Positions 18,849 to 26,896 of a stretch of DNA of 64,000 nt are shown here, piece after piece. The translations under genes were made by a program, and so were the position numbers. The notes under the pieces are model-generated. The model saw only the letters and a list, made by a program, of their open reading frames with translations. It made no database searches and was not told the DNA's origin. Positions within the stretch are counted from its first letter, which is position 1, and each line of letters opens with the position of its first letter. The stretch comes from Deltaproteobacteria bacterium (lineage in GTDB: Bacteria > Myxococcota_A > UBA9160 > UBA6930). The stretch is from the NCBI GenBank assembly GCA_029261795.1, contig JAJDAP010000079.1, positions 1 through 64,000 on the forward strand, given 5' to 3'.

Positions 18849-19239
18849 CACAGAAGGCTCGTAAGCCATTGCAGGGCTTCGGGTTTTCCGCGCATCTCGC
18901 GGACACGGACGCGCTTCGCGAAGCTGCTCGTGTGTGCTGGGTGAGGGGAATTGCGGACCTGGCGGCGAAGGGAAGCCGAGTTCCCAAGCTGGGTCATCGG
19001 CGACCGAATCGGCACCCGAACGACGGGGCCGAATACGTGCAATCGAATCGCAAGGAAACGGCAACAAGCCCATCCAACTATTCGGATCTACGCCGCGGTG
19101 CTCCCCCCCTCGCCGCATGGCACACGACTTGCCATAGAGAAGGCCAATGGGCCCGGGAGACCGGAGCGAACCGGACACTGGAAACGGTACGCTGCGAACG
19201 TCCTGGATGACGACGGGCTCGGAGGCAAGAGAAGAACAG

Positions 19240-19737
19240 ATGGCAAGCATGAAGCGCGGTGTCGGGTACTGCGAGAACACCGACTGTGAGGACTACGCCA
19301 AGGGCGTCTTCCTCCTCAACCACGGCGATACCTTCTACTGCCCACGCTGCCGCCAGCTGGGCAAGGTCGAGAAGGAGCGCGGCTTCTACACCGGAAACTC
19401 CGACATCTTCAAGGAGGTCCGGGTCGAGTACAACTTCGATCCCATCAATGGCGTCTACCGCGAGATCGCGATCGTTCGAGACGAGAGCCTCTGGGGCCGA
19501 AACAACGTCTACACCCTGCAGTCGCCGCTGATCAAGACCGAGAAGCGCGCGCTCAAGGTCGCCGAGGCGATCCTGGCCAACCTGAACCGCTACCGCGGCC
19601 TGTTGAACGGCGACGAGATCCCGCGCACCACCGAGATCATCCTCTCCTTCGATGACCCCTTCGACGAATTCCAGCGCAAGGTCCAGCAGCTCGGCAAGGA
19701 ACTCGAGCAGAGCGGCCTGCGCGAGACCCGCGCCTAG
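19240..19737 (+). CDS. Conserved-looking protein with N-terminal zinc ribbon, unknown function
   Basis: YCENTDCEDYAKGVFLLNHGDTFYCPRCRQLG Cys-rich motif; start MASMKRG. Confidence 0.7.
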   Translation: MASMKRGVGYCENTDCEDYAKGVFLLNHGDTFYCPRCRQLGKVEKERGFYTGNSDIFKEVRVEYNFDPINGVYREIAIVRDESLWGRNNVYTLQSPLIKTEKRALKVAEAILANLNRYRGLLNGDEIPRTTEIILSFDDPFDEFQRKVQQLGKELEQSGLRETRA

Positions 19738-19784
19738 GTTTCGCACTACCCGTTTTCTCACTTCCATTCGCATGGTGTGAGTCT

Positions 19785-19825
19785 GACCCTCCGGAGATCG
19801 GCGTCTCCGGGGGGTCGTTTCTTTT
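19785..19825 (+). terminator. Rho-independent terminator
   Basis: gaccctccggaga-tcggcg-tctccggggggtc followed by gtttctttt. Confidence 0.7.
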
Positions 19826-19832
19826 GGGGCCG

Positions 19833-19920
19833 CCAGAGCGGGGACGGACTCCTCATGTTTCAAGTTTGCAAGTTGTGAAACTTGCAAACTTGAAACATGA
19901 GGAGTCCGTCCCCGCTCTGG
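19833..19920. repeat. Head-to-head REP-like dimer: perfect 42-bp inverted repeat with 4-nt loop
   Basis: ccagagcggggacggactcctcatgtttcaagtttgcaagtt-gtga-aacttgcaaacttgaaacatgaggagtccgtccccgctctgg. Confidence 0.9.
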
Positions 19921-19997
19921 GGCAGCACGTGTGGCAGAATGGGAAACTGGCGGAGTTTTCGCGAGCGAACGAGACCCACTTCCAGAGGGAACCATCC

Positions 19998-20300
19998 ATG
20001 GGAATGCTCAAGGAACTGCTGAAGGATCAGGGGGGCGACCTCCTGCAAACGCTGACCGGTGCCGGCTTCAGTGGCGATGAGGCCGAGAGCTTCCTGCCCG
20101 GCGCCCTGGTGGGAGAGACCGGCGTCGATGAGGGCAAGGCGCGCGGCGGACTCGAGGCGTTGATTCCGGTGGTGCTTTCCCTGCTTCAGGACAAGGCCGG
20201 CGGGGCAGAGGGTCTTCTCGGCATGCTTGGCGGCGGCAAGGAAGGCGGCGCTCCGAATCCTCTGGATCCCTTGGCGGATCGCGGCCGACGGAACGAGTGA
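19998..20300 (+). CDS. Small hypothetical protein (100 aa)
   Basis: MGMLKELLKDQGGDLLQTLTGAGFSGDEAESFLPGAL; trimmed from ORF start 19824, which lies upstream of and reads through the palindrome. Confidence 0.55.
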   Translation: MGMLKELLKDQGGDLLQTLTGAGFSGDEAESFLPGALVGETGVDEGKARGGLEALIPVVLSLLQDKAGGAEGLLGMLGGGKEGGAPNPLDPLADRGRRNE

Positions 20301-20327
20301 GCCCGCCCATTGTCTCGAGGAGAACGC

Positions 20328-21056
20328 ATGAGTCGAAGCGCGATCGTTGTCGGTGTCGGGCCCTACCCCGGCGTAGGTGCCGCCCTTTGCCGGCGCCTCG
20401 CGGCGGAAGGACTCCATGTATTCATGGGAGCCCGCAAGGAAGAGAATCTGGCGAACGTCGCGGCCGAGATCGCCGAGAGCGGCGGACACGCGACGCCGGT
20501 GCCGATGGACACGACGCTGACGGCGGACGTCGAGCGCATCTTCGATGTCACGGAATCGGAAGCCGGCGTCCCCGAACTCGTCGTGTTCAACGCCGGCAAC
20601 AACCAATTCTCGCCTCTCCTCGAGATGAGCGACGAGTTCTTCGAGAACCTCTGGCGAGTCTGTGCGCTGGGCGGCTTCAAGGTCGGCCGGGAATCCGCCA
20701 AACGCATGATCCCGAATGGCGGCGGCACGCTGCTCTTCACCGGCGCCACCGCCTCGGTTCGAGCGCGCCCGCCCTTCACCGCCTTCGCCGCCGCGAAGGC
20801 CGCCGAACGCGCCGTGGCCCACGGGATGGCGCGCGAGTTCGGCAAGGAGGGCCTTCACGTCGCTCACGTCGTGATCGATGGCGTCATCGACGGAGACGTC
20901 GTCAACGGCCGGTTCCCCGGCATCAAGGACCGCCTCGGCGACGACGGAATGCTGCAGGTCGACGACATCGCCGCCGCCTTCTGGCAGCTCCACACCCAGC
21001 CCAGATCCACCTGGACCCTAGAACTCGACATCCGCCCCCACAAAGAACAATTCTGA
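20328..21056 (+). CDS. Short-chain dehydrogenase/reductase
   Basis: AIVVGVGPYPGVGAALCRRLAAEG, NAGNNQFSPL, FAAAKAAERAVAHGMAREFG. Confidence 0.8.
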   Translation: MSRSAIVVGVGPYPGVGAALCRRLAAEGLHVFMGARKEENLANVAAEIAESGGHATPVPMDTTLTADVERIFDVTESEAGVPELVVFNAGNNQFSPLLEMSDEFFENLWRVCALGGFKVGRESAKRMIPNGGGTLLFTGATASVRARPPFTAFAAAKAAERAVAHGMAREFGKEGLHVAHVVIDGVIDGDVVNGRFPGIKDRLGDDGMLQVDDIAAAFWQLHTQPRSTWTLELDIRPHKEQF

Positions 21057-21068
21057 TCGGGGAATCCT

Positions 21069-21112
21069 GAGCGGGGACGGACTCCTCACCTTTCAAGTTT
21101 GCAGGTTTCGCC
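21069..21112 (+). repeat. REP-like repeat, left end of RAYT-2 element
   Basis: gagcggggacggactcctcacctttcaagtttgcaggtttcgcc. Confidence 0.85.
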
Positions 21113-22013
21113 GGAGTCGCCTCATCTCTTCCTCGCCCGCGGTCCCCAGCCCAGCGAGTGTACGGCTCCCGCGAGATCGCATGCGGCTGACCGTTGCGGC
21201 ACTCATCCTGAGCCGGTCGCGGATCCTCTCGGCCGGAACGCCGAGGTCGACGGCAGTTGCCACTGCGAGCCCTCGCGCTTTCACGGCAATCCGTGTCTGC
21301 GAGCCGAAACCGCCATCGATGACCTCGACTCCGACGCCGGTGTGATCAGCGGCCCAGGAGACCGCGGTCTCGAGTGCAGCGTCGGGGTCCAAAGGCACAG
21401 CCTCGATCTCGAGCTTCGACGCCGAATCCGCAGCAGGAGCCGAGGGCGGATCCCCGCCGGGCTCTCCAGCTATGACGAACCGCCGCAACGCCCGGCGCGC
21501 GTCGCGGTGAGAGGCACCGAACAACTCGAGCACGCCGTCGACATCCTCGAACGCGAAGGCGGGGCGCCCTGCAAGGTGAGCCGAATGCCCGCTCCAGCGG
21601 TACGCGCTCAGATCGGCGCGCCGGACGAGCCCCGCACCCACCGGGTTCAGGTGCACATAGCGTATCAGGCGACGGAGATCGGAAGCATCCGTCGCCGATC
21701 GCGAACCGAATCGGCTCTGGAACAGGTACCCGACGCGATCATGGCGATCGTTGAATCGACGAGCATATCCCGTGTTCACCCTGCGCATCACGTGGGAGAC
21801 CGAAGTCCGACCGGTCCTCAGCAGGAGGTGGGCGTGATTGGTCAGGAGCGCCCATGCCAGACCCTTCGTCCCTGCGTCGGGGAGAATGATCGAAAGGCGC
21901 CGGATGAAGTCCTCGCGGTCTTCATCGTCCAAGAAGATCGTCTGACCTTCGACTCCCCGGATCCAGATGTGATGGACCATTCCCGGTTCGTCCGCGCGGC
22001 GTAGACGAGGCAT
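21093..22013 (-). CDS. REP-associated tyrosine transposase with C-terminal DnaA-like/HTH extension (RAYT-2)
   Basis: MVHHIWIRGVEGQTIFLDDEDREDF, LLTNHAHLLLRTG, VNTGYARRFN, GYLFQSRFGS, LIRYVHLNPVGAGLV; stop lies within the left repeat. Confidence 0.88.
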   Translation of the reverse strand: MPRLRRADEPGMVHHIWIRGVEGQTIFLDDEDREDFIRRLSIILPDAGTKGLAWALLTNHAHLLLRTGRTSVSHVMRRVNTGYARRFNDRHDRVGYLFQSRFGSRSATDASDLRRLIRYVHLNPVGAGLVRRADLSAYRWSGHSAHLAGRPAFAFEDVDGVLELFGASHRDARRALRRFVIAGEPGGDPPSAPAADSASKLEIEAVPLDPDAALETAVSWAADHTGVGVEVIDGGFGSQTRIAVKARGLAVATAVDLGVPAERIRDRLRMSAATVSRMRSRGSRTLAGLGTAGEEEMRRLRRNLQT

Positions 22014-22084
22014 CGTTTCACCATCAGGACCTGCGGGGTGACGCTGTATCCATGTAGCCAGCCTGCGAACGGGGCGCCACGCCT

Positions 22085-22127
22085 GGCGAAACTTTGCAAA
22101 CTTGCAACTTGAGGAGTCCGTCCCCGT
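22085..22127 (-). repeat. REP-like repeat, right end of RAYT-2 element (inverted)
   Basis: ggcgaaactttgcaaacttgcaacttgaggagtccgtccccg. Confidence 0.85.
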
Positions 22128-22128
22128 T

Positions 22129-22698
22129 TTAGGGGGCTTTGTCGTCGGTCCAGCGCATGCGGAGGTCGATGGTGAAGCCTGTGTAGATGGCGTGGAGGCC
22201 ATGGTGTTCGTGGCGCTCTACGGGGGGGGCGTGGCGGGCGGCGTCTTCGATCGGGGCGCGGTACCAGGGGAAGAGCGTGCTGGGAAGGGTGTCGGGAGCG
22301 AACCAACGCAGCACCGGGGTTTCGGCACTTGGTGTCAGCGCGCCGCCGAGGACCGTGCAGCGGTAGACGCGGGCCCGGTGCGGCAGGAAGCCGGTGCGGC
22401 GGTACTCGCCGACCAGGCTGCCGACCGCAACCTCGAGGCCGGTCTCTTCCCGGACTTCGCGCCGGAGGCCGGCCTCCTCGGCCTCTCCCGGGTCGAGGTT
22501 CCCGCCCGGGAGTTCCCAACCGCGGAGATCCACCCGCACCGAGAGCAACACGCCCTCGGGCCCTTCGATGACGCCCTGGACGACGACGCGATCTCGTGTG
22601 CCGCGCGGACCGCGGTGGCCGAAGAAGCCCCACAGCGCCGTGCGTGCGTGGTCGGGAAACAAGCGCAACAGACGAGCGAGCCGCCCGGTGCGGCTCAC
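22129..22698 (-). CDS. NUDIX hydrolase
   Basis: GGNLDPGEAEEAGLRREVREETGLEV Nudix box; GTG start overlapping hisG stop; stop codon abuts REP repeat. Confidence 0.85.
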   Translation of the reverse strand: MSRTGRLARLLRLFPDHARTALWGFFGHRGPRGTRDRVVVQGVIEGPEGVLLSVRVDLRGWELPGGNLDPGEAEEAGLRREVREETGLEVAVGSLVGEYRRTGFLPHRARVYRCTVLGGALTPSAETPVLRWFAPDTLPSTLFPWYRAPIEDAARHAPPVERHEHHGLHAIYTGFTIDLRMRWTDDKAP

Positions 22699-23582
22699 CC
22701 CACGATCTTCGAGAGGGGGAACTCGACGATACCCGTCGCGCCCTTCTCGACCAGCTCCGGCAGGAGTTCTCGCACCACGGCCTCTTCGACAACGGTGTTG
22801 AGTGCGACCCACTCGTCGTCGGCGAGAGCCGAGATCGTTGGGCTACCGAGAGCGGGCAGGACGTTCAGGATCGCGTCGAGGTCCTTGCGCCGGACGTTCA
22901 GCATCAACCCGACCCTGCCTGCGGCGTCGATCGCACCCTTCAGCAGGAGCAGGACACGCTCGATCTTGCGGCGCTTCCAATCGTCCTCCCAGGATTTCCT
23001 GTTGGCAATCAAGCGCGGCGTCGTCTCGACGACGGTGTCGAGGATCTTCAGATTGTTGGCGCGGATCGAAGAGCCGGTTTCCGAAACGTCGACGATTGCG
23101 TCGGCGAGCACCGGCGGCTTCACTTCCGTCGCGCCCCAGGAGAATTCGACGTCCGCCTTGACGCCATGTTCCTTCAAGTACCGCTTCGTCATTCCCACCG
23201 CTTCGGTGGCGATGCGCTTGCCGTCGAGATCCTTGACCGACTTGATCTTCGACCCTTCCTTCACGCACAGGAGCCAGCGGATCTGTCGATAGTTGGGCCA
23301 GGGCGCGCGCAGGTCGGCGACTTCCTTGACCTTGGCGCCGGTCTCCTTCACCCAGTCGAGGCCGGTAATGCCGACGTCGAGTACGCCCTGCTCGACATAA
23401 CGTGCCATCTCCTGGGCACGGATCAGCATGCACTCGATCTCCGAATCGTCGATCCCGGGGTAGTAGGAGCGCCCGTCGATACGCAGGTTGTAGCCGGCGA
23501 GTCCGAAGAGCCGAACGGTCGTCTCCTGGAGGCTTCCCTTCGGAATCCCGACGATCAGCTTGTTGGATTTCTTGGCACTCAC
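22695..23582 (-). CDS. hisG: ATP phosphoribosyltransferase
   Basis: KLIVGIPKGSLQETTVRLF, LDVGITGLDWV, IATEAVGMTKRYLKEHG, IVDVSETGSSIRANNL; followed in the same direction by partner hisI. Confidence 0.9.
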   Translation of the reverse strand: MSAKKSNKLIVGIPKGSLQETTVRLFGLAGYNLRIDGRSYYPGIDDSEIECMLIRAQEMARYVEQGVLDVGITGLDWVKETGAKVKEVADLRAPWPNYRQIRWLLCVKEGSKIKSVKDLDGKRIATEAVGMTKRYLKEHGVKADVEFSWGATEVKPPVLADAIVDVSETGSSIRANNLKILDTVVETTPRLIANRKSWEDDWKRRKIERVLLLLKGAIDAAGRVGLMLNVRRKDLDAILNVLPALGSPTISALADDEWVALNTVVEEAVVRELLPELVEKGATGIVEFPLSKIVG

Positions 23583-26603: not shown

Positions 26604-26846
26604 GGCTTCAGTATGGCAGATCGTCTCGCGGTCTTTGACTCCCACGAAACCGGGTCCCCGGGAGTCCCCAGCGGCCGGCTGGAATCGAGATTCCGGCCGT
26701 GCCCCGCTGGTCGCCGATGATCCGGGTACAGCCGACCCCCCTGCTTGGACACCGCGACGTGATCCTGGTGCCAAGGGACTCTTCTTCGTGCGCGAAGCGA
26801 TGGTCAGGCACGACCCGGGTCCACGCTACGCCACACAGAGCCGCAG

Positions 26847-26885
26847 AACTTGCAAACTTGAAACTTGAGGAGTCCGTCCCCGCTC
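26847..26885 (-). repeat. Solo REP-like repeat, same family as RAYT-2 ends
   Basis: aacttgcaaacttgaaacttgaggagtccgtccccgctc, one mismatch to the 19833-19920 arm over this span. Confidence 0.85.
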
Positions 26886-26896
26886 AGGTTGGGATG

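Follow-up and report, generated by a model that had tools for sequence, protein, structure and literature searches.

A Y1 transposase gene with long inverted ends and a dispersed population of gene-less hairpin dimers in a Deltaproteobacteria bacterium: a probable TIRtron

In a 64,000-nucleotide stretch of DNA from a Deltaproteobacteria bacterium (here called the window), the gene of a Y1 transposase lies between inverted copies of a repeat that is scattered through the genome (G000) as gene-less hairpins. We regard this system as very probably a TIRtron of the TIRYT type, a relative of the RAYTs, in which a Y1 HUH transposase with inverted ends of ~42 nt is accompanied by a REPIN-like population of dimers without the gene. 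The system belongs to a known, little-studied kind of bacterial mobile DNA, of which it is a well-documented new case. TIRtrons and TIRYTs were described by Di Nocera et al. 2013 (PMC3733652).

The transposase-bearing unit spans ~1.05 kb in the window genome. Its inverted arms (21072-21103 and 22095-22126) comprise 32 nt and are 91% complementary over the ungapped part; when an indel of 1 nt is allowed, the match extends to GTTTCGCC, giving ~42 nt per end. The left, gene-distal terminal inverted repeat, CGGGGACGGACTCCTCACCTTTCAAGTTTGCAGGTTTCGCC, occupies 21072-21113 on the plus strand and the right, gene-proximal one 22085-22126 on the minus strand, and the repeat starts with C/GGGGACGG at 21072 and 22126. 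On the minus strand, a Y1 (HUH) transposase of 306 aa is encoded (21093-22013, ATG at 22013; PF01797, 31.2 bits). Its C-terminus NLQT and the minus-strand stop codon TGA (21095-21093) are contained within the left repeat. Both the inverted ends, proposed at ~43-44 bp in the initial annotation, and the supply of the transposase stop by the left repeat could thus be confirmed. Two genes converge on the unit, a short-chain dehydrogenase (20310-21056, plus strand) and a NUDIX protein (22129-22812, minus strand), the latter with its stop 6 nt from the right end. No GTAG is present at either end of the unit.

The transposase displays the HUH motif NHAH (H60, H62), FQ at positions 98-99 and Y119 within YVHLNP. 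H60, H62 and Y119 are invariant across 15 homologs, and sequence identity among transposase homologs ranges from 26 to 47%. The NCBIfam model for REP-associated tyrosine transposases scores 63.4 bits, under its cut-off of 80. A C-terminal HTH is weakly indicated in the window protein (HTH_23, E 0.0085, below the Pfam cut-off) and exceeds the cut-off in the homolog L077 (26.6 bits); both Bac_DnaA_C and HTH_23 are matched in the homologs. With profile A1, DnaA chains were hit over profile positions 159-272 (2z4r, E 5e-4), and TnpA_REP 4er8 as well (E 0.0017). Because NHAH, FQ and YVHLNP occur together with a C-terminal HTH and GGGG-type TIRs, we place the transposase, by sequence, in TnpA_Y1 subclass 2.1/TIRYT (PMC6006769; PMC3733652); catalysis and transposition by the protein are putative. 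The motifs NH-x-H, FQ and YVHLNP, the DnaA_C/HTH-like C-terminal extension and the long protein are shared with subclass 2.1 of Quentin et al. 2018 (PMC6006769), corresponding to Bertels group 1 RAYTs, although NHAH has A where NH-x-H of the subclass has V, Y or F.

Three other classes were considered and rejected. The missing GTAG foot and the different protein subclass rule out a gammaproteobacterial GTAG-REP RAYT. Consequently, the initial description as a RAYT with its cognate REPs stands for the RAYT-type gene and for the cognate inverted ends, but not for the nature of these ends, which are long TIRs with a GGGGAC core. An IS200/IS605 insertion sequence is ruled out, as this transposase gene is single copy. 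The outer end reads CGTCCCC, but agrees with CGTC-tagged REPs in letters only, since the known ones differ in stem and gene content: they have short stems of 8-9 bp and are said in PMC3733652 to be without transposase genes.

Dispersal of the repeat, whose absence elsewhere would have spoken against a mobile reading, was borne out by the genome, an assembly of 5.74 Mb in 139 contigs for which copy counts are therefore lower bounds. The 15-mer GGGGACGGACTCCTC has 5 exact copies in the window and 130 (66+64) in the genome, far more than chance would give, against 0 matches in the whole genome for the same pattern read backwards, and 146 matches are obtained when one mismatch is allowed. Among 134 repeat sites collected with up to two mismatches, 123 are held in head-to-head dimers of 72-101 bp, while 11 are solitary, some of them truncated by contig ends. 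The genome contains ~60 such gene-less hairpin dimers, tight against gene ends. They measure mainly 75 or 82 bp (62 in all), and each folds as one long hairpin; the exact-ended dimers fall into two length classes with 23 and ~31 members. In the window, the one complete dimer (19833-19920) is a perfect palindrome of 88 bp with 42-nt arms and a 4-nt loop, and a solitary half copy is located at 26844-26888 on the minus strand. A dimer is what joining the two ends of the unit without the gene would give. The gene-bearing unit, by contrast, is single copy, and so is its transposase gene. It is the gene-less dimer, rather than the gene-bearing unit, that has multiplied, and the earlier notion of an autonomous unit is accordingly only partly supported.

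For comparison, 14 genomes of the family were analyzed, the window genome included, with G001 from the same genus. A homologous transposase was found in 8 of the 14 genomes (E 1e-10, window genome counted). G001 contains neither a copy of GGGGACGGACTCCTC nor a homologous transposase at E 1e-10. Of the 13 family relatives, 12 have no exact GGGGACGGACTCCTC and G002 has 1 copy; the shorter-class dimer pattern does not occur in any of the remaining 79 genomes of the order. Inverted ends were seen for each family homolog examined except L082, for which no clear inverted-end pair was found, and mostly start with GGGGAC, GGGGTC or GGGGCC. The transposases of G003 and G005 (L077 and L078), whose gene occupies one common locus, have the end GGGGACGTTCTTTCCGC, which is present at 77 and 44 copies in those genomes, again arranged as dimers, and at 0-1 copies in each of the other twelve. 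Given this distribution, the repeat matches the transposase in three genomes, namely the window genome, G003 and G005. The TIR motif GGGGWSAS, a majority rather than a universal motif according to PMC3733652, is fitted by GGGGACGG at 7 of 8 positions (seventh base G, not A); end motifs of the relatives are GGGGACGT, GGGGTCAG (full fit to GGGGWSAS), GGGGTCGG and GGGGCCGG. The orthologous transposases L079 and L080, which two congeneric species (G004 and G006) carry at a shared locus, are 52% identical and their flanking inverted repeats have diverged (GGGGTCGG versus GGGGCCGG), which makes them a case for co-divergence of repeat and transposase.

An empty orthologous site was looked for in the same-genus relative and found. 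The dehydrogenase and NUDIX genes directly face each other in G001, their stops 24 bp apart, at the position where the window genome has the unit. Relatives that always carry the gene at this locus with decayed flanks, which would have spoken against mobility, are therefore not what is seen. G001 is 89% complete and might appear to be without the transposase through incompleteness, yet the orthologous site is present and empty. In addition, for 20 dimers with both flanks matched in G001, the element is absent at all 20. In G002, G005, G008 and G010, the gene corresponding to 19147-19737 lies close to the NUDIX gene, and this neighbourhood is hence without the transposase. The dehydrogenase between these two genes (window 19740-21060 compared) is found elsewhere in these four genomes, so the neighbourhood has been rearranged in the genus of the window genome. 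At 16 collinear loci, the unit included, the gap in G001 exceeds the host sequence in the window genome by a median of ~10 bp (range -23 to +90). No target-site duplication is visible at the sites compared with G001, where DNA identity of only ~70-85% blurs the exact insertion points. For the same reason, we suggest only tentatively that host bases may be lost upon insertion.

The two arms of the dimers change together. In the 75-, 82-, 84- and 73-bp classes, there are 61 two-arm departures from the consensus, 60 of which are complementary, and 31 one-arm departures; for the two large classes, 0 of 10000 permutations reach the observed co-variation. Dimers of G003 and G005 (L250-L289) have nearly constant outer 26 nt and a centre that differs in nearly every copy, and their inner arms are 97% complementary within an element versus 56% between elements. 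The hypervariable centres often close with GC-NNNN-GC. Compensatory changes have likewise been reported for REPINs (PMC3116915). Either hairpin-templated correction or selection for pairing would account for the co-variation.

Outside the GGGG, a conserved GAGC borders the elements (n=118 ends; G in 96 at -4, A in 107 at -3, G in 109 at -2 and C in 117 at -1), preceded by CT at -6/-5 in 47 of 118 ends (40% versus 6.7% background). The outer foot in the window genome is therefore (CT)GAGC, which has the AG in common with GTAG, but not the GT. A coding frame enters the element from 99 flanks, and in 57 of these it terminates at -7 to -4, mostly as TGA-GC/GGGG at -5, compared with an expectation of ~7 under a uniform distribution across -60 to -4. 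For the TGA-GC class, 16 genes were compared with well-matched G001 orthologs in alignments read by hand: 9 end at the same residue, 7 are shorter in the window genome by 1-14 residues and 0 are longer (sign test p 0.016; Fisher test against the non-flush class 0.057). As the shifts are all in this direction, the element edge can take the place of a gene's final codons and provide its stop. In G003 and G005, most stops are spread over -4 to -26 with no sharp peak, as expected if the peak in the window genome stems from its TGAGC edge. GTAG REPs, too, are known to supply stop codons from their ends and to crowd where genes converge with their 3' ends (PMC3733652). The present ends resemble them in often giving the flanking stop and in lying within 20 bp of convergent 3' ends, but (C)TGAGC mostly yields TGA as the stop instead of the TAG of the REPs.

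A mobile origin would account for these observations as follows. The transposase would recognize the hairpin foot C/GGGGAC on single-stranded DNA, probably at replication forks, with the AG just outside the foot sitting in place of the AG of REP GTAG, and would cut near the CT beside the foot. A hairpin dimer carrying the transposase's own ends would be pasted into new sites, and copies would persist mainly in very short gaps next to the 3' ends of genes; there the outer (CT)GAGC would often form the stop codon of the neighbouring gene. TnpA_REP of E. coli and S. maltophilia cut at a CT dinucleotide, and the last two bases of GTAG (AG) matter most for cleavage by the S. maltophilia enzyme (PMC8266576); by analogy, the role of the AG and the CT cut site may carry over to this transposase, and cleavage, strand transfer and the cut position are predicted in this sense. 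That this protein moved these dimers is suggested by the co-occurrence of cognate repeats and transposases. The gene-bearing unit may itself have jumped to its present site rather than having been acquired in another way. Mobility is well supported for the dimers, but more weakly for the gene-bearing unit.

It is unlikely, in our view, that the palindromes are instead host elements under selection, such as bidirectional transcription terminators or hairpins at mRNA 3' ends, and that the transposase gene only landed between two of them or borrowed their sequence. Their location next to the 3' ends of genes, frequently in convergent pairs (a rough codon-score call gives 20 convergent, 15 unidirectional and 7 divergent contexts), a very high predicted hairpin stability of about -77 kcal/mol and stop codons flush with the element edge would all suit such a role. 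However, the palindromes are species-specific: G001 has none, and its orthologous gene ends function in their absence. Another transposase clade is paired with another repeat family, and the hairpin is not followed by a U-run. The dimers may still influence transcription termination as a side effect.

A spread of the dimers by replication slippage, inter-repeat recombination or another transposase, with a secondary association to the gene, is highly improbable: template switching in palindromes does let arms correct each other without a transposase, and another Y1-type element is present in the genome in ~33 copies, but among the Y1 genes fetched no other has the repeat within 1.5 kb, only the ends of this one are the repeat, and the match of repeat and transposase is seen again in G003/G005.

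A TIRtron of the TIRYT type remains the preferred reading, and the system shares with those of PMC3733652 a RAYT-like Y1 gene, long inverted repeats unrelated to GTAG REPs, a GGGG core, one end that may overlap the gene and TIR copies elsewhere in the genome, often as dimers. The core GGGGACGG does not quite correspond to the published GGGGWSAS, and the empty sites and the one-to-one pairing of repeat and transposase across relatives, shown here, may be additional to the published description. For subclass 2.1, no REP-like sequences were found in PMC6006769, where the TIRYT link was said to need confirmation, whereas the 2.1-type gene described here has a large dispersed dimer family. As in REPINs with group 2/3 RAYTs (Bertels and Rainey 2011, PMC3116915), inverted doublets are the main dispersed unit with few singlets, hairpin changes are compensatory, there is one cognate transposase gene and the location is intergenic. 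In contrast to REPINs, a GTAG-tagged REP is missing, the element as a whole forms a single near-perfect palindrome with the foot C/GGGGAC, and the transposase is of a different subclass than group 2/3 RAYTs, with an added HTH. As a tentative generalization, which we consider rather doubtful, subclass 2.1 transposases as a class might drive REPIN-like palindromes; on insertion, these would take the place of the short gap at a gene 3' end, bring a ready-made stop codon with either edge and maintain perfect arms through hairpin-templated correction, leaving the centre free to evolve.

TIRYTs were named in 2013 (PMC3733652) and their link was left needing confirmation in 2018 (PMC6006769); in the open literature searched, the terms TIRYT and TIRtron occur in these two papers only. 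The present case adds to evidence that was previously thin: the dimers form a dispersed family, each transposase among the relatives has its own repeat, and the corresponding sites are empty in a sister species. The maintenance of repeat populations by domesticated-looking Y1 transposases becomes directly testable outside the GTAG-REP models.

Two further Y1 types are present in the genome. The window contains, at 1535-2639 on the plus strand, one of the ~33 copies of a ~1.1-kb element that are mostly 84-93% identical in DNA. It codes for a Y1-type protein of 239 aa (NHVHLL; Y1_Tnp, 24.9 bits), and many copies are located at contig ends. No GGGGACGG repeat lies nearby, and this family was rejected as the driver of the dimers, as the copies fetched all lack the repeat within 1.5 kb. 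Its copy number is unusually high for RAYT-like proteins. A single canonical IS200-like transposase (G000:C39:760-1113, 138.7 bits) is distinct from the other two Y1 types of the genome.
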